NCBI RefSeq assembly: GCF_004765815.2
Contig: NZ_SBIS02000013.1
Span: 62,001 to 126,000, forward strand
DNA: 64,000 nucleotides
Source of the DNA: Halorussus salinus
GTDB lineage: Archaea > Halobacteriota > Halobacteria > Halobacteriales > Haladaptataceae
Direction: 5' to 3'
The notes under the pieces were generated by a model. The model saw only the letters and a program-made list of their open reading frames with translations. It had not been told where the DNA came from and did no database searches. Position numbers and translations under genes: made by a program. Shown here piece by piece: positions 18,387-64,000 of the stretch. Position 1 is the stretch's first letter. Every line of letters begins with the position of its first letter.

Positions 18387-18434
18387 CTCAATAACACTCG
18401 TTTCTATCCTCATTCGTATAGGTGTTTTTATAGC

Positions 18435-33503: not shown

Positions 33504-33656
33504 CCTTGGCCGTCCAGTCTGCATGGAAGGGAGTGTAGAAGACCGAAGCTGCTCGTCTTGAGGCTTGTATTGCACTATTTCGTCGGCTAGCTTCTGTCGA
33601 ATGAGGGCGGTGGCTAAGCCACCCGCGGATTGTATCCTATATTTGATTGGTTTCAT
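33465..33656 (-). CDS. possible 63-residue protein coupled to the ATPase gene
   Basis: ATG 33656 overlaps the TGA of the coupling-ATPase gene (ATGA). The frame reads MKPIKYRIQSAGGLATALIR, then QKLADEIVQYKPQDEQL, with a less convincing basic end that runs into the inverted repeat. Position favours translation; composition argues against it. It may be a remnant. Confidence 0.3.
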   Translation of the reverse strand: MKPIKYRIQSAGGLATALIRQKLADEIVQYKPQDEQLRSSTLPSMQTGRPRVLHGHDCPRKIA

Positions 33657-36685: not shown

Positions 36686-37805
36686 GATTTCCTCTGTTGG
36701 AACTGGAGTCGTCGTCTTCGCCACTCTCGGTTTGGCGGTCGTGTTGTCCTGCGTCAGCAGGAACTCGGTCGCCGCGCTGAGTGTGTCGCCAGTCGATGTT
36801 CGGCGTCTCGATGTCATCACTCGGGATATGGGCAACACCAGCGAGTTCGTCGATAGTTAGAATCATCCGCTGGTCGGTCCAGTCACGGGCGGCCATCCGC
36901 TCGACATGCTGGTGGAGTTTGTTCGCCCGTTTCGCCTCTTTGCGGTGCCAGATTGGTGTATCTTCGAAGCCCTGCTCGGTGACGCCCCAGTAGAGTTTCT
37001 TGAACATTCCCGCGACACCACGGGCACGCGCTTCTGCCTCACTCTGGTCTGCAGAGACGGCTAGAATACGGATGTTCGCGTGGAAAGCCTGTTTGCCGCG
37101 CTGTTGTGCGACAGTTTTGGCGATCTGCTTGTCCGTCTCGTTGGCCGGACGGGTTCGTGGATTCAGCCAGCCGACTGAGGTTCCGTTTCGATGGGCTTCC
37201 GCGAGTTCCTCAACGCTGTTGTGTTTGAATCGGTCGCCGTCAGTCCACGACTGCTTCGCGGGCCGGAAAACGACTTGCACGACGACCATGCTATCGTCAA
37301 GCGAAAGCATCTCACTCGTGATTTCACCATAGGGATCCATCTCGAACTCCTCGCTGTTGTGGTGGCGAATCGGATAGTAGGGAATCTTCTTCAGGCCCAG
37401 TCGGGCACCAGCGACGTGTTCGTCGGGCTTGATTACGGGAAACGTGACGCCGTCTTCGACGTGAAAAACTTCGCTGTTGGCGTAGTTGTTACCGACGCGG
37501 CGACGGAACTTGTCGGCGGCCGCGTCGGTCGCGGCGTGCATGTAGAACTTGATTTTGCCTTCATCGAACCATATCTCGAACGAGTGGTGGTCGCTTGTGT
37601 TCTTCCCACGGAAGTTCGTGGTCACGTCGTGGACCGACCGGAGGAGACCGGTCGCGCCGAGGATGTCCTCGTTTTCTTTGAATGGCCGAATACGGAGCAG
37701 GCTACCGGATGTGTCCTCGGCCTGCTGGACGAACGCTTCGTCAAGGGGGAGTTGGGTTGCGCTGTACTGCGGTGAACCGCCGATGATGCGGCTGAATTTA
37801 GACAT
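36675..37805 (-). CDS. conserved conjugation-module protein (DUF8128-like)
   Basis: About 376 residues from ATG 37805. DHHSFEIWFDEGKIKFYMHA, YYPIRHHNSEEFEMDPYGEI and FHANIRILAVSADQSEAEARARGVAGMFKKLYW resemble the non-ATPase N-terminal half of HerA/TraG-type proteins; I recall DUF8128 for such partners. No P-loop is present. It lies between the VirB4-like and coupling ATPases and overlaps both genes, so it probably joins them in the transfer complex. Confidence 0.7.
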   Translation of the reverse strand: MSKFSRIIGGSPQYSATQLPLDEAFVQQAEDTSGSLLRIRPFKENEDILGATGLLRSVHDVTTNFRGKNTSDHHSFEIWFDEGKIKFYMHAATDAAADKFRRRVGNNYANSEVFHVEDGVTFPVIKPDEHVAGARLGLKKIPYYPIRHHNSEEFEMDPYGEITSEMLSLDDSMVVVQVVFRPAKQSWTDGDRFKHNSVEELAEAHRNGTSVGWLNPRTRPANETDKQIAKTVAQQRGKQAFHANIRILAVSADQSEAEARARGVAGMFKKLYWGVTEQGFEDTPIWHRKEAKRANKLHQHVERMAARDWTDQRMILTIDELAGVAHIPSDDIETPNIDWRHTQRGDRVPADAGQHDRQTESGEDDDSSSNRGNHGV

Positions 37806-40800: not shown

Positions 40801-41055
40801 TTCGGTCAGCCAGAGGTGGGAAGGCTTCACCTTGTGGAGTAGCCCGAGGAGAAGACTGAGCGTGGTACCAAGTCCGAGGATGGGTATCGTGAGGGTGGCT
40901 GGGACGAGTGCTGCGCCGATGAGCGTGACGAACGCGACGCCGATGAACAGCATGAGTTCGCCGATGGTGTAGCCGCGGAAGAACGCGGTCGTCCCGCCGA
41001 GCGACTGATGGATTCGTCGTGCACTATACTCGTAGTCGTCAGTTTTGGTACTCAT
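37798..41055 (-). CDS. virB4: VirB4-like conjugation ATPase
   Basis: A 1085-residue protein. The N-terminus has two hydrophobic segments (about 30-75, beginning GELMLFIGVAFVTLIGAALV), like a fused VirB3/PrgI module. Further on, ELVVGMPGAGKTFGDIMRHL holds Walker A and VELAIDEAHYLFEDQANLDF Walker B; QRHAGLRMVLLSQTIQEF fits the VirB4 family. It energises channel or pilus assembly at the membrane. It starts 6 nt after the VirB6-like gene and overlaps the next gene by 8 nt. Confidence 0.93.
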   Translation of the reverse strand: MSTKTDDYEYSARRIHQSLGGTTAFFRGYTIGELMLFIGVAFVTLIGAALVPATLTIPILGLGTTLSLLLGLLHKVKPSHLWLTEWLAARLGWAVKNKEYTHGEDNSEVRYLTRVGQVFPHAIERSDGALVGAMKVEPANMALEDDEAWAKAVESLSEFVNATLDFPVKFYITSREVDQDDTVREHQQRLGDADVRSRPVLKRLLEEYITTNTNQNGDIDSESTTIREYYIITAVRDADVEQLDETGDSVLAYLADVPVLGRAFGGFQSDGLSEAERDHLKEDQLESRLGQIRRGGSSLYRCSVSPVDAYDLARVTNEYWTGHTEEYDDIANAIGTFPVVAHGLSDDVPSNPSPDSIIDAMDDSEATETNVASEDRLDDASTMHQSVIAPSAVDWETTYAVLNDETYVRTFWIEQFPEKPANGMFERLLLETDLQTDVSIHLDPFDTQSAEDMMADWISDLKVNQYDANSLKAEDLQEDIDRGKFMRSLVRANKASFYRGGVFIRLSAESKQELDNQTKRLRSIVKDAPANCTLKVANRWQEKGLATVSPLGANELGRDRMSTMTNQAIGAMFPFSSNYLMMEEGVEYGYHGHNGSPVQINPWDLETGHSELVVGMPGAGKTFGDIMRHLRLMKRQQETMLVMIDPVGGFKGLADALDAKTITVGGDTRLNPLEIRETPQEVLESADGISPLSAKKDEVYAVLENFLTARDIDLGTETGALSYVIDEAYRQAGVVEGDVSTHTPENSPTMTDVHRILADIAKNPDEHNIATSESARERAAQYADELAIALQPFQEGGAYENLSQRSEVDVLEGDNKVVYIDLGQIEGTASGINRQTFLMQLLLTTVYQQAKKTDRNVELAIDEAHYLFEDQANLDFLETAFRHQRHAGLRMVLLSQTIQEFYEAEQAEKILGMCPIKVFHKLPELDDEIAEKIGLTREQRKYVRHADAGKDDLGYSQALVHVEEHGTYPLHIVADEFERRVIDYEPDDREFIQQAISADPEEFVAFEELVEDEARRNALTNRFGVREQDAMRILEDGFSRQEVIDAVLTASLSNGVADSTARADGSGVPTEHDSAETSTENTNNV

Positions 41056-46191: not shown

Positions 46192-47409
46192 CTATGCCTC
46201 AGCCGAGGCAGGGGGTACGTACTCCCCACTCACGTTCAACGTCCCGCGATTCAAGCGCACATCTACGGGTGCGCCTCCATCGTCTGCGTTTTGCCGACGA
46301 CGGAGATACTGCAAACCGATGTTCTTCGAGGCGTTGTAATCGGCGTGGTTCTCATACCCGCATTGCTGACACTCGAACGACTCTCTGTCACGGTTATCGT
46401 CGTGGGTAAACCCACACGTCGAACAACGCTTGGACGTATTTCGAGGGTCTACTTGGGCGACTTCGACGCCGTGTTCTTTGGCCTTGTAATCGACGTACTG
46501 GTAGAGGCGTCGGAACGCCCAGACGTGTTGCCACGTCGCTTCGGGAATATTCTCCCGAATGTGGGTCAACTCCTCGAACACGATGTGCGAACAGTCGTTC
46601 GAGACAGCTTCCTCGATAAGTTCGTTCGCCGCCGTGTGCAAGTGTATCTCGAACCGCCCGTACTCCTTCTGTCCGACTGATTCGATGTTCTCGTGGGCGT
46701 GGCGAGAGCCACACTGCTGGAGCGAGGCCCGACGTTTTTCGTACTCTCGTCTCCAGTGGTTGAACTCGTCTGCCGACCAGAATCGCCCCGTCGAAGCGAC
46801 CGCGAGGTTGTTGACGCCCAAATCCACACCAAGGACTGTTCTGTGCTTGGACTCGGATTCGGACGTTTCCTCGTCTGCTTCGACGTTCCGCATCGAGGCG
46901 TGGAGATACCAGTCACCATCACGATACTGCAAGTGAGCCATCCGAAACTCGAAATCCTCGTCGGAGACGTATTTGGTCGGCGGAGTCTCCGAATCGTCGG
47001 GGAGGATGTAATCGCACTCGACGCGCCCGTCTACGGTGGAAAGGGAAACGTGGTCGCGGTGGAACGTCGCACTCCGCTTGTCGTACACCGCGCTATCGGC
47101 AGAAAAGTGCGGTTGCGATGTGTTCTCGTCACGTTTGAGGCGTTCAACTCCGCTTTTGACGGCTTCGACCGCTCTGCGAATCCCTTTCTGGACGAGGTTC
47201 GCGGTAAGGTCGGTTTCGTTGCGGAGTCGGTCGTAGAGGGCGCGTTCGGCTTTGGCTTTCGAGGTGACGTGGTATCCGTCGTCGCCGTGCCAGCACCATT
47301 CGCTCGCGGTGTTGGCGCAGTGTTTGAACTGCTCGACAGTCTCTCGAAGGGAGTCGTCGGCTCCGTCGGGAGTGTCGAGTTTGATGACGGCGGTACGACG
47401 GTATTCCAC
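46192..47409 (-). CDS. tnpB: TnpB RNA-guided endonuclease, second element
   Basis: About 405 residues from GTG 47409 (MEYRRTAVIKLDTPDGADDS). The RuvC residues D196 (VLGVDLGVNNLA), E279/E280 (IVFEELTHIR) and D357 (NHADYNASKN) and the zinc finger CSTCGF...CQQCGY (about 329-351) are all intact. It differs strongly from the TnpB at 25290 and has no DUF2080 partner, so it belongs to another lineage. An upstream ATG would lengthen it, but the added sequence looks non-coding. Confidence 0.94.
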   Translation of the reverse strand: MEYRRTAVIKLDTPDGADDSLRETVEQFKHCANTASEWCWHGDDGYHVTSKAKAERALYDRLRNETDLTANLVQKGIRRAVEAVKSGVERLKRDENTSQPHFSADSAVYDKRSATFHRDHVSLSTVDGRVECDYILPDDSETPPTKYVSDEDFEFRMAHLQYRDGDWYLHASMRNVEADEETSESESKHRTVLGVDLGVNNLAVASTGRFWSADEFNHWRREYEKRRASLQQCGSRHAHENIESVGQKEYGRFEIHLHTAANELIEEAVSNDCSHIVFEELTHIRENIPEATWQHVWAFRRLYQYVDYKAKEHGVEVAQVDPRNTSKRCSTCGFTHDDNRDRESFECQQCGYENHADYNASKNIGLQYLRRRQNADDGGAPVDVRLNRGTLNVSGEYVPPASAEA

Positions 47410-47725
47410 TGTGTTTTCACATATACGGACTATGTTACTTGTACGTTTGGGAGCCGGTCTGCATCGTAGCGTAATTTGTGTCATCGGTTGTCGGCTTCCT
47501 CCCCGACCTCAAGGGTCGGGGCATCCGCCTTGTACCGCCTGTGAAAATACTCCTCGAAAACTACCCCGAACTGTTAGCAGACCTTCAAAAAGCAGCCTGT
47601 GACGATGACACAGAAATAAGTGAAAGCTAAACTACACTTCTTACCCTCTCTAAAATAGGATTTCCAGCAGCGGGTAGTTTTTAACTGAGTAACATTAATA
47701 AGGACAGAGTTGTGCGGTTTACTTG
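47410..47725. other. left end of the TnpB element and promoter zone of the glycan cluster
   Basis: It contains the left-end hairpin at 47501-47521 and, from about 47560, an AT-rich stretch leading to the regulator gene at 47726. No further gene was found. Confidence 0.6.
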
Positions 47726-51896: not shown

Positions 51897-52100
51897 ATGG
51901 ACCGTTCGGGCGAACTAACAATCTCCAAAGATACCATCGCCGAACTCAACGAGAGAGCGGCTAAGTCGAACTTCGAGAACACAGATTCGTACGCAGAATA
52001 TCTGTTGTCGGAGGTGTTACATCATCTCGATGAGCCGGGCGATGCACCGGATAAAGCAGAAGTCGAAGACCGGTTACAATCACTGGGTTATGTCGAATAA
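51897..52100 (+). CDS. small RHH-like protein with a sulfatase-type C-terminal tail
   Basis: A 67-residue protein from ATG 51897, starting MDRSGELTISKDTIAELNER. The middle is helical (NFENTDSYAEYLLSEVLHHL) and could be a ribbon-helix-helix or a helical clamp. It ends VEDRLQSLGYVE, very close to the tails of the sulfatase-like proteins of this cluster (RLEDLGYL, RLEELGYLQ, QLEALGYL). Its last 11 nt overlap the start of the sulfatase-like gene at 52090, so the two are translationally coupled. Confidence 0.75.
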   Translation: MDRSGELTISKDTIAELNERAAKSNFENTDSYAEYLLSEVLHHLDEPGDAPDKAEVEDRLQSLGYVE

Positions 52101-53325
52101 CGTCTTACTCGTAACCGCAGACAGCCTCCGTGCCGACTATTGTGGCTTTCTGGGAGGTCCGGAGACGACACCATACCTCTCCAAGTTAGCAGATAATAGT
52201 GCGGTTTATGAGTCTGCCATCTCTCCAGGGCCGCGAACGCCGTCCTCAATTGCGTTAACACATACTGGTGAACGGTTCCGAAACGTCGATGCCGATACAA
52301 ATGAGGGCCGGCTAAAACGGATTGCAGACCACATTCGCCGGTTCGAGACAATCCCCGAGCGTCTTGCAGCGCAGGGATACTCAACAGGTGCTGTAACTGC
52401 AAATCCGTGGACGGTAGGTTTTGATGAGCCATTTGATGAATTCGTCGCAATCGGCGAAGGATACGAAAGCGAATCGGATTCCACTGAACGGAGTATTATC
52501 GATAAAGGTCTTGACTATGTGGAGCAGTGGCGAAAGGGAACAGATTGGTTCGCCCAATGCACCAGTTTTGATGACGAAGTCCACCGTCTAATTCAGGAAC
52601 TTCCCGAACCGTGGTTCATATGGGTTTTCCTGATGGACACACACAGTCCGTACATCGTCCCCCGCCAGCATCTTGTTGAATCGAATGTGGCAACGATGTA
52701 CTATAGTGCGCTCCGATACAACGCGAGCGTCATGCGGGGACAGGATGTAAGTTCGCTTCCGTCCCATCTGGATCGATACCTGAAGCGGGCGTATCGAGAT
52801 GCAATCCGCTTAGTGGACACATTCGTTGAGCAAGTCCATCAAGAGGTTCCCAGTAATACAGCACTAATCTTTCATTCCGACCACGGCGAAGCATTCGGCG
52901 AACACGGCACCTACGGGCATCAAGAGGTCCTCTATGAGGAGAACATTCACGTTCCGCTACTCGTTCACGATGGAACAACGAGTGGGCAGTTCCAGCGTCC
53001 AGCATCGACACTCGAAATCCCCTCAATTGTCGAGCAGACTGCAAAAGAGAACTTCGATGGCGAGAATGTAACCAATGATATCGCGTTTGCTCAGACCGGT
53101 GATGGGAGTATGCGTGCAGCTCGGACTCCATCTCACTGGTTCGTCTCAGATGGCGAGCAGGTACTCTGTCAGGATACACGCAACCGCTCCGATTACGGTG
53201 TTGTCCAAGACGAGGAGGTAGCCACAGCGGTTGCCAATCTCTTTGAAGCCGAGTTTGCACCAGACGCAGAGAAATCCCAAGTTATCTCGGCTATTGAAGA
53301 TGCATCCTTTTCGAGTATCAGGTAA
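52090..53325 (+). CDS. sulfatase-like hydrolase/transferase without LGYL tail
   Basis: A 411-residue alkaline-phosphatase-superfamily protein. VTADSLRADY and HSDHGEAFGEHG supply metal-binding D/H residues. The nucleophile position is T50 in GPRTPSSIALTHTG rather than the Cys or Ser that makes formylglycine in sulfatases, so it may transfer or hydrolyse another group such as a phosphodiester. It lacks the (R)LxxLGYL ending of its paralogues; that tail is present on the small protein encoded just upstream. It probably modifies the surface glycan. Confidence 0.85.
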   Translation: MSNNVLLVTADSLRADYCGFLGGPETTPYLSKLADNSAVYESAISPGPRTPSSIALTHTGERFRNVDADTNEGRLKRIADHIRRFETIPERLAAQGYSTGAVTANPWTVGFDEPFDEFVAIGEGYESESDSTERSIIDKGLDYVEQWRKGTDWFAQCTSFDDEVHRLIQELPEPWFIWVFLMDTHSPYIVPRQHLVESNVATMYYSALRYNASVMRGQDVSSLPSHLDRYLKRAYRDAIRLVDTFVEQVHQEVPSNTALIFHSDHGEAFGEHGTYGHQEVLYEENIHVPLLVHDGTTSGQFQRPASTLEIPSIVEQTAKENFDGENVTNDIAFAQTGDGSMRAARTPSHWFVSDGEQVLCQDTRNRSDYGVVQDEEVATAVANLFEAEFAPDAEKSQVISAIEDASFSSIR

Positions 53326-53470
53326 GCGAACAGGTATCGTTCAATTCGCGCGAGGGACTTAGCGTCTCACGGTTCTGAGGTTTTCGAGGTTGTAAACTGT
53401 AACTCCGATCGCGTTCTAGCTCGTGCTTTCGTTCGTGCTTGGCGTTGGAGTCGTTTCTACGTTGGATTTG
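53326..53470. other. short gene-free stretch with a cluster-internal repeat
   Basis: The motif TTCAATTCGCGCGAGGGACTTA (about 53350-53370, written here in part as TTCAATTCGCGCGA) resembles pieces at 57074 and 58295. It is probably a decayed IS end. Confidence 0.4.
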
Positions 53471-54709
53471 TCATCTGGGGTTGTCTTGCAACAGAGTCAT
53501 CGGCGAGCGGTCGACATAGAATACCACAATACTACCAAGCATTATTGCCAGACCAATCATCCCTGGAGAGGCAACCGTGAGTATGGGAGTGACAATATCC
53601 ATTATAATTCCCTCAATCCCGAACGGCAGGCCAATGAGGCCGAGCACGTTTGCGATTTCTTCCGGGCCAACAGAGAAGCTTGCGACCACTAGCCCAGTAC
53701 AGAGTGAGACTCGCAGTTGGGGGTCTGTGTAAATTGTCGTGAGTAGAGGGAAATAAGTCAACAGAAGATAGTTTGGGTACGAGGGCGTGGAGAGGATGAT
53801 TCCAATAGTAGTTACTAAGAATGCGACGATGGCGGGTTTCGTTGGGTCATCCTTGAAGTAGGCAAAAGCGATAATCGCAAGCCCCCCAAATAACGGCACA
53901 AGGAAAAACATAATTCCGGGAGCATCAGGAAATAAATGCGAGAGAGCTCGGTTCGGTGTGACGAGTGGGATATTCGGATTCAGACCTCCGTGATACCAAT
54001 GAAGACGACTCCGTTCGCTCGCGATGTACTCAACGTAGGAGGCGTGCATCTCGACTCCGAAAGCCAAGAAACTGAGAGCGACAGCGACAAGTCCAGAGGC
54101 GATGGCAACTCCGACTGCTTTATACGTCCTCTTTTTAAGAAACCAGAGACCGAAGAGGGCAGGAAATATTTTCAACACAGCTGGGAAAGCGAACGCCAAC
54201 CCACTTGCAACCTCGTCACCCTGGTTGAGAAAGATGTAGCCGATGCAGAGCATGAGCGCTATCCAATAGGTCACCTGTCCATGGGCGTACGTCATCACGG
54301 CGTGCGGGCCGACGAGAAACGCCCCTGTTATTAGTACTTCATCAACCCGGTTAAGGTCAGTACCCTGTGAGCGGATATATTTGATCGTCAGAATGGCCGT
54401 AATTGTCGCGAATATCACGTTGAAAATGATGTGCGTAGCGAGGGCGAGTTCCCAGTTCGGTAGCAGGGTAAAGGGATAAAAAAGGAAGACAGTAATCGGC
54501 GGGTAGACGTAATGCATGTTGAAGTCGGTTTCAGGGACTGCATAAGGTTTGATGAAGGGATCGCCGGCTTGCGCTTGTTTGGCAGCGAAGTAGTACCGTT
54601 GGAAGTCAGCTGCCTCAATGTTCGAGATGAGAACGAAATAGAGGAGAATTGCGATTCCTGCACAGATGGATACTGCCAATGCGAGACGTGGGATAGTTCT
54701 CTTATCCAT
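53471..54709 (-). CDS. GT87-type polyprenol-dependent glycosyltransferase
   Basis: About 412 residues from ATG 54709 (ATG 54718 is also possible). It has roughly ten membrane segments. The extracellular loop after the first helix holds ADFQRYYFAAKQAQAGDPFI and the YVYPPITVFLFYPF motif typical of GT87 (DUF2029) mannosyl/arabinosyl-type transferases, with the aspartate of the ADFQ block as the likely catalytic residue. It would add a sugar from a lipid carrier on the outer face. It is the only minus-strand enzyme gene of the cluster. Confidence 0.87.
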   Translation of the reverse strand: MDKRTIPRLALAVSICAGIAILLYFVLISNIEAADFQRYYFAAKQAQAGDPFIKPYAVPETDFNMHYVYPPITVFLFYPFTLLPNWELALATHIIFNVIFATITAILTIKYIRSQGTDLNRVDEVLITGAFLVGPHAVMTYAHGQVTYWIALMLCIGYIFLNQGDEVASGLAFAFPAVLKIFPALFGLWFLKKRTYKAVGVAIASGLVAVALSFLAFGVEMHASYVEYIASERSRLHWYHGGLNPNIPLVTPNRALSHLFPDAPGIMFFLVPLFGGLAIIAFAYFKDDPTKPAIVAFLVTTIGIILSTPSYPNYLLLTYFPLLTTIYTDPQLRVSLCTGLVVASFSVGPEEIANVLGLIGLPFGIEGIIMDIVTPILTVASPGMIGLAIMLGSIVVFYVDRSPMTLLQDNPR

Positions 54710-54941
54710 TATTAGCACTTTCGCGTTAGAACAGAATATGAATGTTCCTATCCTGTCGTTCTGGGATTTGCAGTCCCCGCTAGAATCTGTGGAAATTTAT
54801 TCATATATCTAGAATATAAATATCTTTACTATTCCGTCTCCTATCTGCCTTTTTAGTTTCAAGAATAGCAATGGTGATCGAAGGCCGCAACCGTCAGCTA
54901 GTGTCCTCAGTTTGAGTCGGCTGCAGAGTAGTTCCCGTAAT

Positions 54942-55199
54942 CTACTTTTCGGCAATTCTTTCGCACATTCTACATGGCTGTTTGTTCCGTCTTTTTGCTT
55001 CTTCGACTGTAACGCATTCAAACTCCGCTGTTTTAGAGCTAGCATTGCATAGTGGTTTCCCCTCATTTGTCGGTATGTGATAGGAGTATCCCCCGTTTGC
55101 AGCTCCATTTTTCGTTGTTAGAACCTCCACTACGTCTGAACGGGTATCCGAGGCAGCTCGCTTTTCGCGCTCATCCCGCGAAGGACGGTGTTTTGACAT
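54942..55199 (-). CDS. small hypothetical protein with C-terminal CxxC
   Basis: An 85-residue protein starting MSKHRPSRDEREKRAASDTR. YSYHIPTNEGKPLCNASSKT and RRNKQPCRMCERI place three cysteines in the second half, a possible metal site. I recall similar small proteins in haloarchaea (HxP...LC...CxxCE pattern) without known function. It is not clearly in an operon with its neighbours. Confidence 0.65.
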   Translation of the reverse strand: MSKHRPSRDEREKRAASDTRSDVVEVLTTKNGAANGGYSYHIPTNEGKPLCNASSKTAEFECVTVEEAKRRNKQPCRMCERIAEK

Positions 55200-55368
55200 A
55201 CTCTGTGAATCAAATTTGGGGATAATATAGATTTTGCTTCGATAGCGTAACCTACTTAGAGCCTCTCAATACTGAACCTACTAGGAGTTGACGTGGACTC
55301 AAACGCTGTTTCTCCACTTGATGTGTCAGACTCGTACCGAAAGAGCTTTTCCGAAAGAAATCTCGGAT

Positions 55369-56139
55369 ATGAGTATGCGATTGCTCGGTTATTACCTACT
55401 CCTTGCAGGGGTGTCTATTCTCGCTGGCGTCAGTTCTCTCCCCCTCTACCCAACCTTTGGTCTGTTAATTCTAAGCGCCGCAATTCCAGCCATCCTTGTC
55501 GGGCTCTACTCTCCTCCCCAATCTATGAGAGGATCTGCGAATCTCGTATTCGGTCTGGTGGTATTCTCCATGTCCCATCGGATCGGGATGACCCTACGAC
55601 CCGCAAGCATGGTCGGGTACGACCCGGACAAGTATGCTGTATTCTCCAATCTTATTGTTGAGTCGGGGTCAATACCTGACTTGGGTTTTTACGGATTCGC
55701 TTCTCTGTTCCATCTCCTACCCGCAATGCTGTCCGTACTATTCGACATTCCCCCGCGCCTGTCCTACCTCATTTATGCTATAATATTCGGGGCTACACCA
55801 CCGATCATGAGCTGGATTATCGCTCGCCGACTCACGACACGTGGTGGAGCGGCTATCGGGGCTGGTCTCGGAAGTGCGCTTCCGAGTTTTGTCCACTTTT
55901 CCATCTGGCCGATCTCGCAGGCTCTCGGCACCGTCTTTTTTGTGTTCGCGTTGTACTCTTTTGGTCGCGCTATTAATGTTCAGAACGATCAAAATCGGTG
56001 GGTTATCTTGATGCTTATGTATACACTTGCGGGAGGATTAGCTCACAAGCTCCCTGTGCTAATGCTTGCATTGGTAATGGTGTTCGCCAAGGCGATCGTC
56101 TATATCACCCAAAACAAGGGATTCAGCAATGCAACGTAA
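55369..56139 (+). CDS. polytopic membrane protein, N-terminal part of a possible split pair
   Basis: About 256 residues from ATG 55369 (MSMRLLGYYLLLAGVSILAG). Seven or so membrane segments are visible, with a loop containing YDPDKYAVFSNLIVESGSIP resembling the first outer loop of large archaeal glycosyltransferase-like membrane proteins. It stops at TAA 56139, while the next gene starts inside its last codons (ATG 56129), in another frame. The two together would have the size and topology of a single GT-C-like protein. Confidence 0.72.
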   Translation: MSMRLLGYYLLLAGVSILAGVSSLPLYPTFGLLILSAAIPAILVGLYSPPQSMRGSANLVFGLVVFSMSHRIGMTLRPASMVGYDPDKYAVFSNLIVESGSIPDLGFYGFASLFHLLPAMLSVLFDIPPRLSYLIYAIIFGATPPIMSWIIARRLTTRGGAAIGAGLGSALPSFVHFSIWPISQALGTVFFVFALYSFGRAINVQNDQNRWVILMLMYTLAGGLAHKLPVLMLALVMVFAKAIVYITQNKGFSNAT

Positions 56140-57067
56140 AGTTCCAACAGTTCTGACTCTTCTCGTGATTGTCTGGGGGCTTGTGGAGTATGTTTTATTC
56201 ACCAGATTTGCAGTCTCGGTAGTGCGGCTATTCGGCGGCCTATTAGATATTTTCGCGGTGGGGGCAGAGTCGCTTCCAGAACCACAAGCCGCTCGCGCGA
56301 CGTCTGCGGGGTGGCTCGAAGTATTCGGCCATTTTTCACATGCGCTGATTCTGCTCCCAATTGTGTTTGTTCTCTGGGTCTATGCAATCCAGCGCTGGCA
56401 ATTGACCGGGATGCGTCTTGCAGTCCTGTCCGGTCTTGGGGCAATATTAGGTGTCGTCGGAGTGAGCTTTCCTGGGTTCTTTTCGTCTGTCGCCCCACAA
56501 CCGTCGCGGTTCTATCTGTTCGCAACTATCCCGATTGCCGCCTTCTTAGGCGGATGTTCGGTGCTCGGTCACAAGAGCGATAACTGGCGGCGGGGAGTTA
56601 CTGCCGGACTTGTAGTGGTTCTGCTCTTTCAGTCGATGGCGTTCTCTGCATCCATTTCCCCGCCGGGAGAGCCGCGGTATTTCCTAACTGGCGAGGAGGT
56701 GGCCGGCAAACACTTTGCATCAGAACATCTGGAGTCGCCTGTATACACGGACCAATACTATGCACGAGAGGTGGTTTTCCCACAGAGTGTCAAATCGACT
56801 ACTCATCCTGCAGTTCATCTTGGCGGGGACATTGCAATCCCGCCATTTAAGCAAACCGCAGGGCATCTCTTCAATGGAACGCTCTCTGAGTTAGAGACGG
56901 TTGCACTGCGGACGGACGAGTCTGTGTTCCGACCGAGTGCGGGAACCGTAGGAGGTGGGTATCAGGAATTGACGTATGATCCTGAGGTATACCTTGATGA
57001 GACGCACAGTAAAGTCTACTCAAACGGCGGGGTGAACGTGTACACGAACGAATCTGATTCTGGATGA
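56129..57067 (+). CDS. membrane protein with outer domain, C-terminal part of a possible split pair
   Basis: A 312-residue protein starting MQRKVPTVLTLLVIVWGLVE. Four to five membrane segments run to about residue 180, followed by a soluble domain (GEPRYFLTGEEVAGKHFASE...), which in GT-C-type proteins lies outside the cell. It overlaps the preceding gene by 11 nt in a different frame. Either the pair is naturally split and coupled, or a frameshift has broken one gene. Confidence 0.72.
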   Translation: MQRKVPTVLTLLVIVWGLVEYVLFTRFAVSVVRLFGGLLDIFAVGAESLPEPQAARATSAGWLEVFGHFSHALILLPIVFVLWVYAIQRWQLTGMRLAVLSGLGAILGVVGVSFPGFFSSVAPQPSRFYLFATIPIAAFLGGCSVLGHKSDNWRRGVTAGLVVVLLFQSMAFSASISPPGEPRYFLTGEEVAGKHFASEHLESPVYTDQYYAREVVFPQSVKSTTHPAVHLGGDIAIPPFKQTAGHLFNGTLSELETVALRTDESVFRPSAGTVGGGYQELTYDPEVYLDETHSKVYSNGGVNVYTNESDSG

Positions 57068-57365
57068 GGGTGTTCAATTAGCGCGAAGTACTTATTTCCT
57101 CCCCGTTCTGGTAGGTCTCTATGTAAATTATGAGCGTCTAATCAGGTACGTGATTTCGTTACGCCAGACGTCTCGATAGCCGACATTCAGTCAATGATTG
57201 ACTCGCTGAGGGATTGGTGTCGGAAATTGTGTTTCTCGGCGAGTTCTCACATGATTCGGCGCTTACTCTGCGGCCGGGCGAATACTGGTATGAAATGGTT
57301 CACGGGTGAAGGTTAATGGACGTGGATAGCTACGTTTTTGACTCTTGATAACGGTGTCTCGGATT
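57068..57365. other. gene-free stretch with repeat shared with 58275-58410
   Basis: The blocks GCGCGAAGTACTTATTT with TTCTGGTAGGT, and CGGCGAGTTCTCAC with ATTCGGCGCTTA, recur at about 58300-58400, where the sequence between them is shorter. They are probably two decayed copies of one insertion element. Confidence 0.6.
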
Positions 57366-58274
57366 ATGTTAGCTCAATGGGCGTCTCGTTCGGTAAAGCG
57401 AGTGCGTGAAGACGGATTACACGGGGCGAAACAATCACTACGCTATCCGTACATCTATGCACTCCAATCATTAGGGGCTATTCATAAATCAGGGGATAAT
57501 ATATACTCACGTGAGTGGGATCTCTTGATTATTCTTGATGCTTGCCGAGCTGACTTGTTACAGTCCGTTTCGGACCAATATGACTTTCTCGGCAGCGGTG
57601 AGACAATGTGGTCGAAAGGCGCAGTAACAAAAGAATGGATGCAGGAAACGTTTGTTGGCTCGTACGCTAGCGAGATGAATAAGACAGCATATATTTGTGG
57701 TAATCCTCACTCAGACTCTGAGCTTGACAGTTCTAATTTCGAGTTACTTGATGAGACTTGGCGTGAAGCTTGGGAGTCGACGATTCCCCCTCGTGCAGTT
57801 ACTGATAGGGCAGTAGAGATAGCGCGAACAAGTAGACCTGAGAAGATGATTGTTCACTATATGCAACCTCACTGTCCGTTTATCTCGTGGGGTGACAAGG
57901 CCCAGGTTAAGTCCGCGGACAATTTTGGGGAACAAGATACAAAGGATGTTTGGCAGCGACTTCGAGACGGCGAAGTGAATAAAGCAGAAGTCTGGCAGGG
58001 GTACCGAGAGAACCTACAAATCGCGTTAGACGAGGTGGAAACGCTGTTGGCGAGTATTGATGCGGACACGGCAGTTATCACGTCTGACCACGGGAATGCT
58101 TTGGGGGAGTGGGGTGTGTACGGCCATAAACCACGTCTTCCATTGGCGTGTTTGCGTGAGGTACCGTGGGAAGTGACGAGTGCTGTTGACACGGGTGCTT
58201 ACGAACCAACGTATGTGTTTGAGGATTCCGACGTTAGCAAACAAGAGCAGCTTGAGGCACTTGGCTATCTGTGA
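57366..58274 (+). CDS. sulfatase-like protein (divergent type) with LGYL tail
   Basis: About 302 residues from ATG 57366 (MLAQWASRSVKRVREDGLHG). LLIILDACRADLL provides the first metal residues and ITSDHGNALGEWG the second set. The nucleophile region GAVTKEWMQETF has T88 at the expected site. It ends KQEQLEALGYL. This short type is common near haloarchaeal surface-glycan genes; the reaction is unknown, probably removal or transfer of a charged group on the glycan. Confidence 0.83.
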   Translation: MLAQWASRSVKRVREDGLHGAKQSLRYPYIYALQSLGAIHKSGDNIYSREWDLLIILDACRADLLQSVSDQYDFLGSGETMWSKGAVTKEWMQETFVGSYASEMNKTAYICGNPHSDSELDSSNFELLDETWREAWESTIPPRAVTDRAVEIARTSRPEKMIVHYMQPHCPFISWGDKAQVKSADNFGEQDTKDVWQRLRDGEVNKAEVWQGYRENLQIALDEVETLLASIDADTAVITSDHGNALGEWGVYGHKPRLPLACLREVPWEVTSAVDTGAYEPTYVFEDSDVSKQEQLEALGYL

Positions 58275-58915
58275 CAATGCAGCCACGCGCACCTCGCGCG
58301 AAGTGCTTATTTTCTCCCCATTCTGGTAGGTCGCTGTACAATTCTGTTCATCGGCGAGTTCTCACAGGATTCGGCGCTTATTCTGCGGATGAGCGTGACA
58401 TATGACGGCTATGCTATCATATTGACGGTAGAGGCGAATGCGTTCGAGACCGCGCAGGTACGCGAATTTCTGATGTGTTTTCAGTAGGAGCAGATAATTC
58501 TGGGATACGGATAGTGATTAATAACTGAGGTGATTGGCCGTCCGTTGATTAAAAGTAGTGAGTGGGCTAGGTATGGGTGTGAGGGGCTTGGAGTAGTTAA
58601 CATGTCTTCAGGCACTAAATACGTGTACCGGGGCGGCAAGTAGGTCTAATTACTGGTATCAATTCACGCAAGTTGTCGTACCTGGTCTCCATCTGTTGCA
58701 GTACCCCCAAAACAAACCCACGAAGTTTTGCCCTCCTGGTTCTTACTCAATTTACTGAGTTTCGGCCCCGGCTTGAGAATAAGATAGTGAAAGTAGCATC
58801 CTTGCTAATTAAACTACTGTTTGAAACTCACCATTCTGTGGAGCTATCTACCGCATCTTGGCAGTTGTGAATAGTTAGTACTATAAACACGCCCTCTTAT
58901 TTTGATTTACTAGGA
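58275..58915. other. 640-nt gene-free stretch with IS-like remnant
   Basis: The first 130 nt carry the repeat shared with 57068-57290. No plausible gene lies in the rest. The base composition becomes AT-rich from about 58650 on, and TTAGTACTATAAACACG with TATTTTGATTTAC just before 58916 may be the promoter of the next operon. Confidence 0.55.
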
Positions 58916-60364
58916 ATGGAGAGTCCCAACATCATTTTGCTCGTTATGGATACTGCTCGAGCAAAAACCGTGGTGCCCGCTCTTAAGAAGGAAACTTTAC
59001 CACACTTATCTAAATTTGCTCGTGATTCGGTCTTATTCAACAATGCCAGTACCGTTGCCCCCTGGACACTTCCCTCCCATGCATCGATATTTTCAGGCCA
59101 GTACACCAGTTCCCATCAGACCGACGCTAACACACCGGATTTTCAACCGGATTCCTCTTCCTTAGCAGGAAAGTTATCGAAAAATGGATATTCAACTGCT
59201 GGAATATCTGCAAATCCATGGGTGAGTCCAGAGTTTAACTTTGACCAAGGGTTTGACCAGTTTTCAATGAAATGGGATGAAGGTTGGGAAAGCTTTGACG
59301 TTACTGCCGCTGTGAATGCTGAGTCTACAATTGAGGGCCTACTAAAATCAATCAAACAAACACCTATCCAACAACTACCGGCCTTAATGAAGAGTCTTTG
59401 GCATAAGAGATTTCATGATTCTATGTCCGATAACGGGGCTAAAGAAATCACGACACGAGCAAAGAGATGGATTAAACAACAGAAGCAAGAAAGCGAGCCT
59501 TTTTTCCTTTTCCTCAATTATCTTGAACCGCATCTCCCATACGAGCCTCCTTCAGCCTTCATTGAGGAATTCCTTTCTGAAGAAGAATTAGCTACTGCCG
59601 ATGAGATTGACCAGGATCCGTGGAAGTTTATTGTTGGAAGAGTCGAACACGATACAAATGAATTTGACCTATTACGGAAGCTCTACCTTATTGAAATATT
59701 GTACTTGGATGCACAGATTGGAGAGCTATTTGATTTCCTAAAGTCTGAAGGAGTATATGAGGACACCGCGATATTTATAATTGGCGATCATGGCGAAAAC
59801 ATTGGAGAACATGATTTGATGGATCATCAGTATTGCCTATATGAGACGTTAGTGAATGTCCCATTACTAGCTAAACATCCTGAGCTGGAAACAGGAACGG
59901 TTGACGAACGGTTAATTGAGTCGCGCGACCTCTATCCTACAATTTTACAACTAGCTGGCATACCAATGAACAATTTACCATCCCCGGTCTCTCAAGAGCC
60001 TATTACTACCTCCTCCCGAGATTACGCTATCTCAGAATACCTAACGCCACAACCTGATGTAGATACACTTGCAAAGAAAGTCAATGCGGACTTATCACCA
60101 TCTCGATTTGACCGTGCTCTCCGGTCTATACGTACCAAGGAGTGGAAACTAATTGAATCTTCAGACGGATCCCACGAACTTTATAACGTATCCATTGATG
60201 TAGAAGAACAGAATGACCTTTATGATGATGAGCCAGATATTGCAGAAAAGCTACGTAGCAGGTTGTCAGAGTCTATCGGTCCCTTAACTATGTCAGAAGC
60301 ATCCCGTCAAGATATTAGCAAAAATAGTAAGCAAAGACTTGAAGAACTCGGTTATCTCCAATAA
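58916..60364 (+). CDS. sulfatase-like protein with Thr nucleophile and LGYLQ tail
   Basis: A 482-residue protein. IILLVMDTARAK (D12) and FIIGDHGENIGEHD are metal sites. WTLPSHASIFSG has T51 in the position of the formylglycine Cys/Ser. DRALRSIRTKEWKLIESSDGSHELYNV is the conserved C-terminal subdomain and RLEELGYLQ the tail. It is AT-rich compared with the genes before 58 kb. It lies 22 nt before the flippase gene and resembles the 61839 protein throughout, so the two arose by duplication. Confidence 0.9.
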   Translation: MESPNIILLVMDTARAKTVVPALKKETLPHLSKFARDSVLFNNASTVAPWTLPSHASIFSGQYTSSHQTDANTPDFQPDSSSLAGKLSKNGYSTAGISANPWVSPEFNFDQGFDQFSMKWDEGWESFDVTAAVNAESTIEGLLKSIKQTPIQQLPALMKSLWHKRFHDSMSDNGAKEITTRAKRWIKQQKQESEPFFLFLNYLEPHLPYEPPSAFIEEFLSEEELATADEIDQDPWKFIVGRVEHDTNEFDLLRKLYLIEILYLDAQIGELFDFLKSEGVYEDTAIFIIGDHGENIGEHDLMDHQYCLYETLVNVPLLAKHPELETGTVDERLIESRDLYPTILQLAGIPMNNLPSPVSQEPITTSSRDYAISEYLTPQPDVDTLAKKVNADLSPSRFDRALRSIRTKEWKLIESSDGSHELYNVSIDVEEQNDLYDDEPDIAEKLRSRLSESIGPLTMSEASRQDISKNSKQRLEELGYLQ

Positions 60365-60386
60365 TGGGATACGGCTATTAAATCAC

Positions 60387-61805
60387 ATGGCATTTGAACG
60401 GTCAACGGTTTTGCTTGCAGCAAGTAAAGCATTAAGCGCAATAATAACCTTTGTTGGAATTGCCTTTTTTACGCGAGAGCTTGGATCTGATGGAATAGGG
60501 CAGTTTTTCTTATTCCAGTCAGTATTGACATTTATTGTTTTTTGGTCGAATCTGAGCATCCAGAATGCAGCAGAGAAGCGAATTAGCGAGGGTAAACCCA
60601 AGGGTGAAGTTATATCCTCAGCTTTAGTTCTAAAATTATTTGCATTAGCTACAACTATTATATTAGTATCGGGTATAAGTGATCATATAAATAGTTATTT
60701 AGGGGGTGATTTAGCATATCTCTTGGTTATTGGAATAATCCTGAGTGGAATGGGGGATTTTGTTATTCGAATAATGAGCGGTGATCTTCGAATAGGAGAA
60801 ACAGCAATTTTACGGCTTAGTCAGCGAGTTTTTTGGCTTGTAACGGGTATAACACTAGTCTGGTACGGATACGGAACACGTGCACCAATAATTGCTCTAA
60901 TCATTGGTCTCTTTGTAATGTTTGTTTGGGCAACTATACGATGCAATTTCGAATTTGCTTCGCCTTCTATGCTTCGTATAAGGGAATTACTCTCGTTTTC
61001 AAAATATGATTTGATAGCAGGAGCAAGTCGAAAGGTCTACAATTGGGCCGATGTGTTAATTATAGGGTTATTTTTAACGTCTGCAGATGTTGGCAGATAT
61101 GAGATTGCCTGGAGAGTCACTGTTATCGCAGGGTTACTCTCAGATTCCGTTTCACAGGTAGTATTCCCCCAAATAAGTCATTGGACGAGTAACAATGCTC
61201 TGGACAAAATTGAACAGGCTATGAGTGAAGCACTTGCGATGTCGATGGCATTAGTTATTCCAGCCCTATTTGGAGCCCTAATTCTTGCAGATACAATACT
61301 TTCGGTGGTGTTCGAAATAAAGTCCCCTGAGGCAGTTCTTGTCCTTGGGATTCTAATGTTAAGCCGACTGATTTTCGTGAATTTTCAGCCGATGAAACGG
61401 ATCTTGGATGGTCTCGGGCAGGTAAGCCTTTCAGCTCGAGCAACGGCCGCATCTGCTATCGCTAACATTTTGCTGAATTTTGTGTTAGTACAGAAGTACG
61501 GTGTTATAGGGGCAGCCGTTGGGACAACTATAGCTGTGCTTGTAGGAACCATTTTGACTGGGTATTATCTACATCTCCACCTAGAAATCATATATCCCCG
61601 GAAAATGGTGGTTGGGTTTCTAGGTGGATCAATAGTCATGACTGGTGTTCTTCTTGGAATTAGAAGATACATCGATATTAAATCGGCCCCTGTACTTTTT
61701 GCGACTGTAGTGTTAGGAGCGATAGTGTACGTTGTCTCTCTTTTAATGTACACCCCTACAAGGGGGTTCCTAAGAAGACAGTACGAAAGTTTCTTTGTAG
61801 TCTAA
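60387..61805 (+). CDS. polysaccharide flippase (Wzx/RfbX-like)
   Basis: About 472 residues from ATG 60387 (MAFERSTVLLAASKALSAII). Twelve to fourteen membrane segments are spread over the protein; FFTRELGSDGIGQFFLFQSV and VGRYEIAWRVTVIAGLLSDS are typical of the oligosaccharidyl-lipid flippase family. It would move the lipid-linked glycan across the membrane. It is flanked on both sides by related sulfatase-like genes (22 and 33 nt), suggesting one operon. AT-rich like its neighbours. Confidence 0.92.
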   Translation: MAFERSTVLLAASKALSAIITFVGIAFFTRELGSDGIGQFFLFQSVLTFIVFWSNLSIQNAAEKRISEGKPKGEVISSALVLKLFALATTIILVSGISDHINSYLGGDLAYLLVIGIILSGMGDFVIRIMSGDLRIGETAILRLSQRVFWLVTGITLVWYGYGTRAPIIALIIGLFVMFVWATIRCNFEFASPSMLRIRELLSFSKYDLIAGASRKVYNWADVLIIGLFLTSADVGRYEIAWRVTVIAGLLSDSVSQVVFPQISHWTSNNALDKIEQAMSEALAMSMALVIPALFGALILADTILSVVFEIKSPEAVLVLGILMLSRLIFVNFQPMKRILDGLGQVSLSARATAASAIANILLNFVLVQKYGVIGAAVGTTIAVLVGTILTGYYLHLHLEIIYPRKMVVGFLGGSIVMTGVLLGIRRYIDIKSAPVLFATVVLGAIVYVVSLLMYTPTRGFLRRQYESFFVV

Positions 61806-61838
61806 AATCCTCTTTGACAAGAGTACTGTAATTCCACT

Positions 61839-63275
61839 ATGCAACGACCAAATATCCTGTTGATCGTCATGGATACCGCTCGAGCTGATTTCGTTGAGGA
61901 CAGCCGTGTAATGCCTTATCTCAATGAGTTTGCTAAGGAGTGTACCTGGTTTTCGAACACGTTTGCTAATGCTCCTTGGACGCTTCCGTCTCACAGTTCA
62001 ATTTTCACAGGTAAGTATCCCTCAGAACATGGGACCGGTGGTAACAAAAAGTACTTTGACTCGGAGCGAAATATAGTGTCCGAGTTAAATAAAGCCGGCT
62101 ATCAGACTGCTTCATTCTCCAATAATCCGTGGATTAGTCCGGACTTTGGGTTCGACGATTTCGATACTTTTACTCCTTGTTGGCAACTCTTCCGCCGAGG
62201 GGCTGATCTTGCAGCTATCTCACAAGAGGAAGGTATTCGACGACAGTTGAAGATGCTGGTAAGCAAATTAGCAAAGATAGATGCTCCCTTTACCTTAGCA
62301 AACGCCCTTTATATGAAATTCATAGAAGGAAAATACGATTCTGGCGCTGCTCTCACGAACTTCCGATTAAGACGGTGGTTATTGGACCAAGGGGAAGAGA
62401 AACCTTTCTTTGCTTTTGTTAATTATATGGAGCCTCATTTAGAATATAATCCGCCTCATGAACATCGGGAAAAGTTCCTAGACGAGGATGATTTAGACCG
62501 ATGGAATAAGGTAAATCAGGATCCTTGGGCATATTTGACAGACTCCGTTGAAATGGACGAAACAGATTTCCAAATATTAAAACAACTCTACCGGGGTGAA
62601 CTTCATTATTTAGATTCCCGTCTGGAGCAGGTATTTACCACCCTAAAGAATACTGGATTAATGGATTCAACGGCTGTCTTTGTGACGGCGGATCACGGCG
62701 AGAATCTCGGTGAGCACGGACTTATGGATCATCAATATTCCCTGAATGAGGCTCTACTTAGAGTCCCACTTCTAGTCCATTACCCTGATGAGTTTGAAGA
62801 CGGGGGAATTGATGACCGGATGGTTGAACTCAGAGATCTGTATCCAACAATACTTTCGCTTGCGGGAATCGAGACTTCGTTCGAAAGTACAGAATATCCT
62901 CCTCAGGACTTGACAAATAATGACTGGGGCCGTGAGGCAGTAATTGCTGAGTATCTCTCTCCACAGCCCTCGGTATCCACACTTAGTAAGCGTTACGACG
63001 TACGGAATTCGAAGATGGCTGAGTACGATCGAGCGTTACGATCTATTCGAACAGCTGATCAGAAACTTGTTGAGGGAAGTGATGGGACTCAACAACTGTA
63101 TAGAGTAGGCGAAGACGAAATGGATCAAGATCAGACACATGTGGAAGGTAAAAAGGGACTTGCTGAACAATTGCAGAAGGTTGTCGGAGATTTTGATTCG
63201 GGACTCGCTCAGTCGGGCGGCCGTAAATTACCAGAGTCAAATAGAGAGCGTCTTGAGGATCTCGGCTACCTCTGA
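61839..63275 (+). CDS. sulfatase-like protein, paralogue of 58916-60364
   Basis: A 478-residue protein. ILLIVMDTARADF and FVTADHGENLGEHG are metal sites; FANAPWTLPSHSSIFTG has T48 at the nucleophile site. DRALRSIRTADQKLVEGSDGTQQLYRV and the tail RLEDLGYL match the 482-residue paralogue. The substrate is unknown; the Thr argues against a formylglycine sulfatase and for a phospho- or other transferase/hydrolase. It sits directly behind the flippase gene and before a glycosyltransferase gene. Confidence 0.9.
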   Translation: MQRPNILLIVMDTARADFVEDSRVMPYLNEFAKECTWFSNTFANAPWTLPSHSSIFTGKYPSEHGTGGNKKYFDSERNIVSELNKAGYQTASFSNNPWISPDFGFDDFDTFTPCWQLFRRGADLAAISQEEGIRRQLKMLVSKLAKIDAPFTLANALYMKFIEGKYDSGAALTNFRLRRWLLDQGEEKPFFAFVNYMEPHLEYNPPHEHREKFLDEDDLDRWNKVNQDPWAYLTDSVEMDETDFQILKQLYRGELHYLDSRLEQVFTTLKNTGLMDSTAVFVTADHGENLGEHGLMDHQYSLNEALLRVPLLVHYPDEFEDGGIDDRMVELRDLYPTILSLAGIETSFESTEYPPQDLTNNDWGREAVIAEYLSPQPSVSTLSKRYDVRNSKMAEYDRALRSIRTADQKLVEGSDGTQQLYRVGEDEMDQDQTHVEGKKGLAEQLQKVVGDFDSGLAQSGGRKLPESNRERLEDLGYL

Positions 63276-63319: not shown

Positions 63320-64000
63320 ATGACTCGAATCGCGTTTTTCACCGGTTCAAAATCCGCATTCAATATACTATTTGATACCTTGAATTTTGGGTGGATGCTA
63401 CACAATGACTATGAGCTAGATCTAATAACAACAAAGCCGGATGAGTTGGGTCCATTAGCCAACTACTTTGAGATGCATGGTGGGAATTTTCCTTCAACAC
63501 GGGTTGGGGAGACACGGGCCCTACATAACTATCTCAAATATAATCGACCGGAGGTGATCGTTAATGTTGTTGAGCCATCGATTCACGGAAATATTGTTGG
63601 GGCACTTGCAACCCATCACGGAATTCCATTTACTTATCGGTATAGTGGTGACCTCCTTGACCTTTATCGAGTGAGTCATGGATGGCGGAAACCAGCCCAA
63701 TTTATGCTAAATAATATTTTTGGGCGCCTCGCGATATCGACTGCAGATAAGTTCATAGCTCTAGGACCTACGGGGAAAAAGCGACTTACGGATCATGGGG
63801 CCACTCCGTCGGATGTAGAAATTCTCCCGCCACCGATTGACAATGAGCGGTTTAAGGGTGTTGAGCCGTCAGATATCTCTATTCCTGAAGGGCGGAAACT
63901 TGTCCTATATGCTGGGAGGAGAAGCCGAATCAAAGGGATGAATGACATGAATACAGCTATCCCTGAGATTCTCAGTCGGCGAGACGATTTGCAATTCGTG
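63320..64000 (+). CDS. GT4-type glycosyltransferase, 3' end cut by window edge
   Basis: The frame opens at ATG 63320 (MTRIAFFTGSKSAFNILFDT) and runs to the window end without a stop, 227 codons. TYRYSGDLLDLYR and ADKFIALGPTGKKRLTDHGA are in the acceptor domain; LPPPIDNERFKG and KLVLYAGRRSRIKGMNDMNT begin the nucleotide-sugar-binding domain of GT4 enzymes (usual length about 350-400 residues). It starts 44 nt after the sulfatase-like gene and probably belongs to the same operon. Confidence 0.85.
   Translation, partial: MTRIAFFTGSKSAFNILFDTLNFGWMLHNDYELDLITTKPDELGPLANYFEMHGGNFPSTRVGETRALHNYLKYNRPEVIVNVVEPSIHGNIVGALATHHGIPFTYRYSGDLLDLYRVSHGWRKPAQFMLNNIFGRLAISTADKFIALGPTGKKRLTDHGATPSDVEILPPPIDNERFKGVEPSDISIPEGRKLVLYAGRRSRIKGMNDMNTAIPEILSRRDDLQFV

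Follow-up and report, generated by a model that had tools for sequence, protein, structure and literature searches.

Sulfatase-fold proteins with a threonine nucleophile in a glycan cluster of Halorussus salinus are candidate glycan sulfotransferases

Hydrolytic sulfatases depend on formylglycine, whose second hydroxyl lets the enzyme release its sulfate. What, then, might sulfatase-like proteins do that carry a plain threonine at this position and are encoded in a gene cluster for glycan assembly? The question is raised by 64,000 nucleotides of Halorussus salinus contig NZ_SBIS02000013.1 (the window), in which four genes of the sulfatase/alkaline phosphatase (AlkP) superfamily, S1 to S4, all on the + strand, lie amid glycosyltransferases and a Wzx-type flippase. 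An earlier interpretation, made without database searches (the sequence-only reading), proposed that these proteins attach or move phospho-groups on surface glycans rather than remove sulfate. Here we describe evidence that leads us to favor, with moderate confidence, the view that the cluster encodes cytosolic glycan sulfotransferases that depend on a metal and belong to a Ser/Thr-type AlkP class, of the same kind as Agl30 and Agl31 of Halobacterium salinarum. We hold this view for S2, S3 and S4 and, with less certainty, for S1. The genes and their nucleophiles are as follows.

52090-53325, + strand: S1, AlkP superfamily; PF00884 112 bits (cut-off 25); alternative upstream ATG at 52030
52237-52239, + strand: codon of the S1 nucleophile T50 in GPRTPSS, placed by alignment
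57345/57366-58274, + strand: S2, compact AlkP protein of the Agl30-type family; PF00884 25.1 bits (cut-off 25)
57627-57629, + strand: codon of the S2 nucleophile T95 (T88 counted from the ATG at 57366) in GAVTKEW
S2 residues 3-46: N-terminal helix in the AlphaFold2 model
58251-58271, + strand: S2 tail LEALGYL, which holds L-x-x-L-G-Y
58916-60364, + strand: S3, sulfatase-like, no membrane segment; PF00884 132 bits (cut-off 25); tail LEELGYLQ
59066-59068, + strand: codon of the S3 nucleophile T51 in WTLPSH, placed by phmmer to PDB
61839-63275, + strand: S4, sulfatase fold, no membrane segment; PF00884 138 bits (cut-off 25); tail LEDLGYL
61980-61982, + strand: codon of the S4 nucleophile T48 in WTLPSH; D12, H200, D285, H286 and H298 conserved

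The four threonines had been placed by the sequence-only reading at T50 (S1), T88 (S2), T51 (S3) and T48 (S4), and both the placement and the numbering are correct. When S3 is aligned by phmmer with enzymes of solved structure, the Thr in its APWTLPSH stretch falls on the formylglycine Cys or Ser, for example that of NPCGPSR in 4upk and SISTPSR in 7lha. The borderline PF00884 match of S2 begins in the profile after the nucleophile stretch; a profile-profile alignment of 64 S2-like with 37 S1/S3/S4-like proteins sets S2 T95 on S4 T48 (probability 99.6, E 3.6e-24) and pairs LDACRAD with VMDTARAD, QPH with EPH, DHGN with DHGE, and YGH with MDH. Slips of alignment were rejected as an explanation on the strength of these two comparisons. 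Structure prediction agrees, in that each Thr is the first residue of a helix (residues 95-102 of S2 and 48-57 of S4) in AlphaFold2 models with predicted local distance difference test (pLDDT) scores of 93.3 and 85.6, respectively; the pairing of the sites with known enzymes is by sequence profile, the fold searches having given no residue-level superposition. At the place of the formylglycine motif C/S-x-P-x-R, the proteins read WTLPSH (S3 and S4), RTPSSI (S1) and VTKEWM (S2). Threonine in PF00884 proteins is itself already known: the available text of PMC5066984 reports it for 30 of the family's 59 Pfam seeds, doubts that it can give formylglycine, and warns of false sulfatase annotations.

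A survey of relatives, drawn from fetched haloarchaeal loci after removal of rows with identical ends, indicates that the Thr and Ser sites form a conserved class and are not four oddities. Proteins of the S1/S3/S4 type have Thr in 97 rows (one a partial copy of S3), Ser in 13 and Cys in 33; those of the S2 family have Ser in 112, Thr in 19 and Cys in none, percentages leaving out the 6 and 1 rows, respectively, that are gapped at this position. Ser or Thr thus occupies 110 of 143 and 131 of 131 readable positions, and because these residues are conserved as a class, the threonines are not due to chance. In the host genome (4.75 Mb), 11 such genes were found (10 PF00884 matches and one further S2-family gene), with 10 Thr, 1 Ser and 0 Cys, and the 57 S1/S3/S4-type rows within 78 named S2 loci comprise 48 Thr, 8 Ser, 0 Cys and 1 unreadable. 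A FastTree tree of the S1/S3/S4 type, with many long branches and built from 140 of the 143 readable rows (3 short rows excluded), needs one change between Cys and Ser/Thr (support 90) and at least 4 between Ser and Thr; in the S2-family tree (64 rows) the Ser/Thr interchange likewise needs at least 4. A search at E 1e-20 that scored up to 9 candidates per genome detected the S2 family in 219 of the 243 Halobacteriales genomes; searches capped in this way can miss genes, another with the same cap having counted 9 host matches where 10 were found otherwise. Among 15 listed plasmid-borne relatives of S2, 14 are annotated as hypothetical and 1 as sulfatase-like. In 11 Halobacterium genomes (L094-L104), an S2-family gene is paired with an AlkP gene in 11 of 11 loci, the nucleophile stretch of the AlkP protein being TTTPA in the loci read; in three of them (L094, L095 and L097) the neighbors look by eye like purine genes, and no aglB was seen.

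The remainder of the active site changes together with the nucleophile. Arg at position +4 is present in 32 of 33 Cys rows and in 0 of 110 S1/S3/S4-type Ser/Thr rows; a GKWH-like motif occurs in 19 of 33 Cys rows, 0 of those 110 and 0 of 131 S2-family rows; and column 13, adjacent to the first metal Asp, holds Asp or Gln in 31 of 33 Cys rows as against 0 of the 109 readable S1/S3/S4-type Ser/Thr rows, as counted from alignment columns, a regular expression being cruder (DD in 4 of 97 Thr rows, and S2 misread). Metal ligands are retained: among readable S1/S3/S4-type Ser/Thr rows the counts are 108 of 109 for D12, 104 of 104 for H286 and 103 of 104 for H298, and among S2-family rows they are 131 of 131 for D65, H176, D248 and H249 and 129 of 131 for H261. 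The MCR-1 site given in the accessible part of PMC7576196 consists of Thr, Glu31, Asp250-His251, His180 and His263; this set matches that of the Ser/Thr class, with Glu replacing Asp, and the EptA and LtaS lists there overlap with it. The DH-pair His and the last site His are spaced by 12 positions, as are His251 and His263 in MCR-1 and His453 and His465 in EptA. The assignment of the Thr site to the LtaS/EptA transferase type is therefore borne out, and because the rest of the site varies with the nucleophile and matches the MCR-1 set, the Ser/Thr-type proteins probably hold an unmodified Ser or Thr at the metal.

Maturation enzymes point the same way. A search for the formylglycine-generating enzyme (FGE) gave no match at E 0.001 in the host genome, FGE being detected in 27 of 243 Halobacteriales genomes, the host not among them. 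The anaerobic sulfatase-maturating enzyme (anSME) has some match in 71 of 116 genomes and one over the cut-off in 1 of 116, again not the host, whose best match scores 66 bits (cut-off 349). A formylglycine serine of the anSME type was considered for the S2-family Ser and rejected, as Arg is absent from +4 in every row and anSME is this scarce. As the sequence-only reading had supposed, formylglycine is not to be expected from a Thr; for this reason, and in view of the undetected FGE and the transferase-type site, a formylglycine-route sulfatase activity of S1-S4 is very unlikely. The four resemble formylglycine type I sulfatases (SulfAtlas S1) in the group sequence profile and in the overall fold of S4, but differ in lacking C/S-x-P-x-R, the second Asp/Gln and GKWH.

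Archaeal surface proteins were recognized decades ago to carry sulfated glycans. The enzymes for this sulfation were named only in 2025, and according to the available text of PMC11980604, complete sulfation of the N-glycan of Hbt. salinarum, whose sulfates are placed by nuclear magnetic resonance (NMR), requires two AlkP-fold proteins, VNG1056C (Agl30) and VNG1057C (Agl31). Deletion of either gene lowers, and expression of Agl30/Agl31 in Haloferax volcanii adds, a glycan modification read as sulfate; VNG1063H has no such main role. VNG1056C was found in the membrane fraction, with a predicted segment at 21-39, and VNG1057C was soluble, with 6hhm as its reported nearest structure. The authors left the mode of action open, and the words threonine, PAPS, nucleophile, active site, formylglycine and catalytic do not occur in the part of that text available.

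Primers printed in the same source (PMC11980604, seen in part) encode short peptides: DFGHLDM, ITDRTV and the tail HLEDLGY of VNG1056C, VHYFQPH of VNG1063H, and the tail LEELGYT of VNG1057C. Against the S2 profile, with the reading frames of quantitative PCR primers chosen by score, the three VNG1056C peptides give single-peptide p values of 0.02, 0.03 and 0.009, and ordered pairs score 30.2 for VNG1056C and 33.2 for VNG1063H, equalled by 12 and 9, respectively, of 5000 random pairs of non-AlkP open reading frames (ORFs), a pool that may hold unlabelled S2 fragments. Pairs from S2-family genes (loci below L111) equal these scores in 296 and 183 of 1500 cases. The VNG1057C pair (11.2) and a housekeeping control (9.9) are both chance-like. 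On this partial, primer-encoded sequence Agl30 belongs with the S2 family, a likeness that is not a pairwise identity, and Agl31 does not, since 1909 of 5000 random pairs score as well. Agl30 and Agl31 share with the window proteins the AlkP fold, a glycan-cluster setting and, with S2, S3 and S4, the tail described below; Agl31 further resembles S4, which lacks a membrane segment and has 6hhm among its best structural matches (Z 37.3). An Hbt. salinarum genome in our set (G064; bacteriorhodopsin 100% identical over residues 3-262) is probably of another strain than NRC-1 because its S-layer peptide is 83% identical, and its S2-like gene (L053, 6413-7396) was dropped as a candidate for Agl30, the Agl30 primer peptides not being close by eye.

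A C-terminal L-x-x-L-G-Y tail is present in 94 of 110 S1/S3/S4-type and 125 of 131 S2-family Ser/Thr proteins (219 of 241), in 0 of 33 Cys-type proteins, in 23 of 3143 other mechanically called ORFs, and in S2, S3, S4, Agl30 and Agl31. It is thus common to two unlike Ser/Thr-type AlkP families, and we would guess that it is a shared docking tail. The oligosaccharyltransferase gene aglB lies in 23 of the 78 named S2 loci (~19 kb each; 9 named genera), with 0.48 expected at random, or in 21 of 78 by a stricter AglB motif; this share is biased and does not describe the whole S2 family, because the scan had an aglB-cluster protein at the head of its query and retained the 80 best of 203 relatives, and because loci from the same genus lack independence. 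The 78 loci include none from Hbt. salinarum. For Halorubrum PV6, the part of PMC6137143 available lists a 'sulfatase' as HrrPV6_1061 and AglB as HrrPV6_1063.

The glycan context assumed by the sequence-only reading is right, the genes lying in a glycan-assembly cluster. No secretion signal or membrane segment was seen by hydropathy in S1-S4, whose highest 19-residue Kyte-Doolittle means are 0.89-1.15 versus 2.63 for the flippase, and because they have no strongly hydrophobic segment they should act in the cytosol. None matches a P-loop Sulfotransfer Pfam domain at E 0.01.

The strongest competing explanation keeps the sequence-only proposal whole: S1-S4 would use their Thr to transfer phosphoglycerol, phosphoethanolamine or sugar-phosphate, and the glycan would gain phosphodiesters; we regard it as unlikely. 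In its favor, S1-S4 share the Thr and most metal-site residues with MCR, EptA and LtaS, the acid-Thr-Asp-His arrangement being known from profiles, and Foldseek ranks 1-18 for S2 are all phosphoethanolamine transferase structures, of which 4kav aligns with the S2 model, a minimal core, at Z 15.5 and root-mean-square deviation (rmsd) 3.0 over 202 residues (VIA-align). The sulfatase 9koq is tied for S2 at Z 15.2, however, and S4 has a complete sulfatase fold, C-terminal part included (4upl, Z 38.6, rmsd 3.2, 388 aligned). Matches of the window proteins to the phosphotransferase families lie far below NCBIfam cut-offs. EptA and LtaS act outside the cell on a membrane anchor and use phospholipids, whereas S1-S4 show no membrane anchor or export signal. 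Canonical enzymes that make 3'-phosphoadenosine 5'-phosphosulfate (PAPS) were not detected in the host genome, and the +80 Da modification in Hfx. volcanii is not separated from phosphate at the precision given in the accessible text, because masses are printed to two decimals (the difference is ~0.005 m/z at 2+ by computation); against phosphate stand the Hbt. salinarum relatives needed for full sulfation and the sulfates placed there by NMR (PMC11980604, in part). Of the sequence-only proposal, transfer in place of sulfate removal is thus supported by the site and the undetected FGE, and the phospho-group is probably wrong, given the Agl30/31 genetics and the missing anchor.

That S1-S4 are instead Thr-nucleophile hydrolases (phosphodiesterases, phosphomonoesterases or formylglycine-free sulfatases) trimming the glycan or its lipid carrier seems improbable to us. 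S3 and S4 match PF01663, the type I phosphodiesterase/nucleotide pyrophosphatase family, which uses Thr, at 46.5 and 64.8 bits (cut-off 23); the genes lie, however, among synthesis genes and a flippase, no secretion signal is seen, and the relatives are needed for adding groups (PMC11980604, available text). Non-catalytic relics or scaffolds of a laterally acquired island, a thought invited by the low-GC (guanine plus cytosine) surroundings beside a plasmid-like region and by the 25.1-bit S2 match, are highly improbable, and gene decay was rejected, as the metal-site residues are present in all four proteins and nearly invariant in their families, one of which is so widespread.

Several observations weigh against the sulfotransferase reading itself. 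In fold, S2 is equally close to phosphoethanolamine transferases and sulfatases; S1 has no L-x-x-L-G-Y tail, and the hydrophobic N-terminal segment that Agl30 is reported to have is missing from S2. The N-terminal primer of Agl30, in known frame, gives no S2 match, its tail fits the S1/S3/S4 profile better than that of S2, one control primer reached p 0.04 in the single-segment S2 test, and S1/S3/S4-type ORF pairs equal VNG1056C in 25 and VNG1063H in 19 of 3000 cases. The putative Ser/Thr nucleophiles of Agl30 and Agl31 lie outside the primer-read parts. In the available text of PMC11980604, some sulfation remained in Hbt. salinarum without both genes, and in that of PMC6137143 the +80 sugar of the Halorubrum PV6 N-glycan is called a 'sulfated/phosphorylated hexuronic acid'. 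No AglB motif was found in the window and 60 kb fetched around it within a 205-kb contig, the rest of which was not searched, so that the glycan of this cluster, known from its genes alone, may be another one. Finally, the link between Cys and FGE is imperfect: a top-scoring sample gives 22 Cys and 3 unreadable rows in FGE-positive genomes versus 9 Cys and 3 Thr in genomes without detected FGE (9 of 12 readable Cys), so Cys-type proteins without a detected FGE exist, and the S1/S3/S4-type rows of a Halobacterium sample hold 2 Cys among 43 readable (37 Thr, 4 Ser; 2 unreadable). Five Cys-type haloarchaeal proteins (L078, L079, L080, L083 and L085, from genomes G261, G070, G109, G220 and G197, FGE not detected) read CGPFR, an odd motif for formylglycine.

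The supply of activated sulfate belongs on the same side. All 243 genomes pass the Pfam cut-off for adenosine 5'-phosphosulfate (APS) kinase and 19 do so at E < 1e-40, the next best being 1.2e-7, in a search that scored up to 15 first-look candidates per genome and can miss genes. No strong APS kinase was detected in the host or in the 12 Halobacterium genomes sampled, where the weak matches look like other P-loop proteins; because those 12 also lack it, its absence from the host does not argue against sulfation. ATP sulfurylase was found in 1 of 116 genomes, not the host; a strong APS kinase occurs in 18 of 219 S2-positive versus 1 of 24 S2-negative genomes, hence without a link; and no Sat or CysC motif lies beside S2 in 78 loci, one of which (L175) holds the only P-loop sulfotransferase-like motif. 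All 18 genomes tried have a match to PF01507 (CysD/CysH-type PP-loop proteins), with no CysN-like neighbor seen by eye in four short loci. In L195 (1072-1932 and 2181-3404, both on the - strand), a strong APS kinase adjoins a PRGGSS-motif gene that by eye resembles a P-loop sulfotransferase and not an AlkP protein. Canonical sulfate activation is thus rarely detected in haloarchaea, despite the sulfated glycans that Hbt. salinarum is known to make.

How might glycan sulfotransferases of this kind work? The unmodified Thr would serve as nucleophile and take a sulfuryl group from an activated donor, which the rarity of canonical sulfate activation keeps us from naming as PAPS. A Thr-O-sulfate would then be held at the metal (Asp, Thr, Asp-His and two His) and the sulfuryl group handed to a sugar hydroxyl, presumably on the lipid-linked glycan before its export by the neighboring flippase. 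A plain Thr or Ser ester would have no second-hydroxyl release route, which favors transfer, so the proteins more likely build sulfated sugars than strip sulfate. The sulfotransfer role is predicted, with putative substrate, donor and product; that the window enzymes act as Agl30 and Agl31 do is inferred, together with the covalent step and the parts given to donor and acceptor. The broader idea of a large haloarchaeal sulfotransferase class derived from the sulfatase/AlkP fold, with a Ser/Thr-O-sulfate intermediate and a non-PAPS donor (APS or other), is offered tentatively.

The island spans window bases 48-64 kb, with a GC content of 0.43-0.50 versus 0.53-0.58 upstream, and its other genes are as follows.

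53471-54718, - strand: membrane glycosyltransferase GT87, inside the cluster; PF09594 E 1.4e-25
55288-57067, + strand: PMT-like membrane glycosyltransferase, two ORFs overlapping at 56129-56139; PF13231 E 6.8e-5 (sub-cut-off) in the first ORF
60339-61805, + strand: Wzx/MATE-type polysaccharide flippase between S3 and S4; PF13440 E 1.9e-21
63320-64000, + strand: glycosyltransferase family 4, continuing past the window end; PF13439 E 1.7e-7

The PMT-like gene is perhaps split, its ORFs overlapping by 11 bases and the second having no Pfam match, and further glycosyltransferase-like ORFs follow the family 4 gene by eye. The window as a whole has a haloarchaeal look, its proteins being acidic and the relatives retained in the genome scan coming almost entirely from Halobacteria. 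Window bases 1-47500 appear, from genes named by eye, to be a plasmid-like region or one like an integrative and conjugative element, with two large VirB4/HerA-like ATPases (33653-36838 and 37798-41055), an Orc1/Cdc6-like gene (26911-28128), TnpB-like genes (25290-26519 and 46192-47484), a Fic-like gene (17241-18650) and a CHAT-like gene (13971-16070).

In the open-access papers searched, subscription papers lying outside the search, we found no Thr-type AlkP sulfotransferase mechanism and no joining of a Ser/Thr, FGE-free site with sulfation. The sulfotransferase reading can be tested directly and cheaply, starting from the Ser/Thr nucleophile, the transferase-like metal site, the common tail and the scarcity of detected PAPS synthesis. 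If true, it would provide a function for the widespread S2 family. The broader class, if real, would be mechanistically distinct from both the P-loop PAPS sulfotransferases and the PAPS-independent aryl sulfotransferases, and many database 'sulfatases' would be named for the reverse of their activity.

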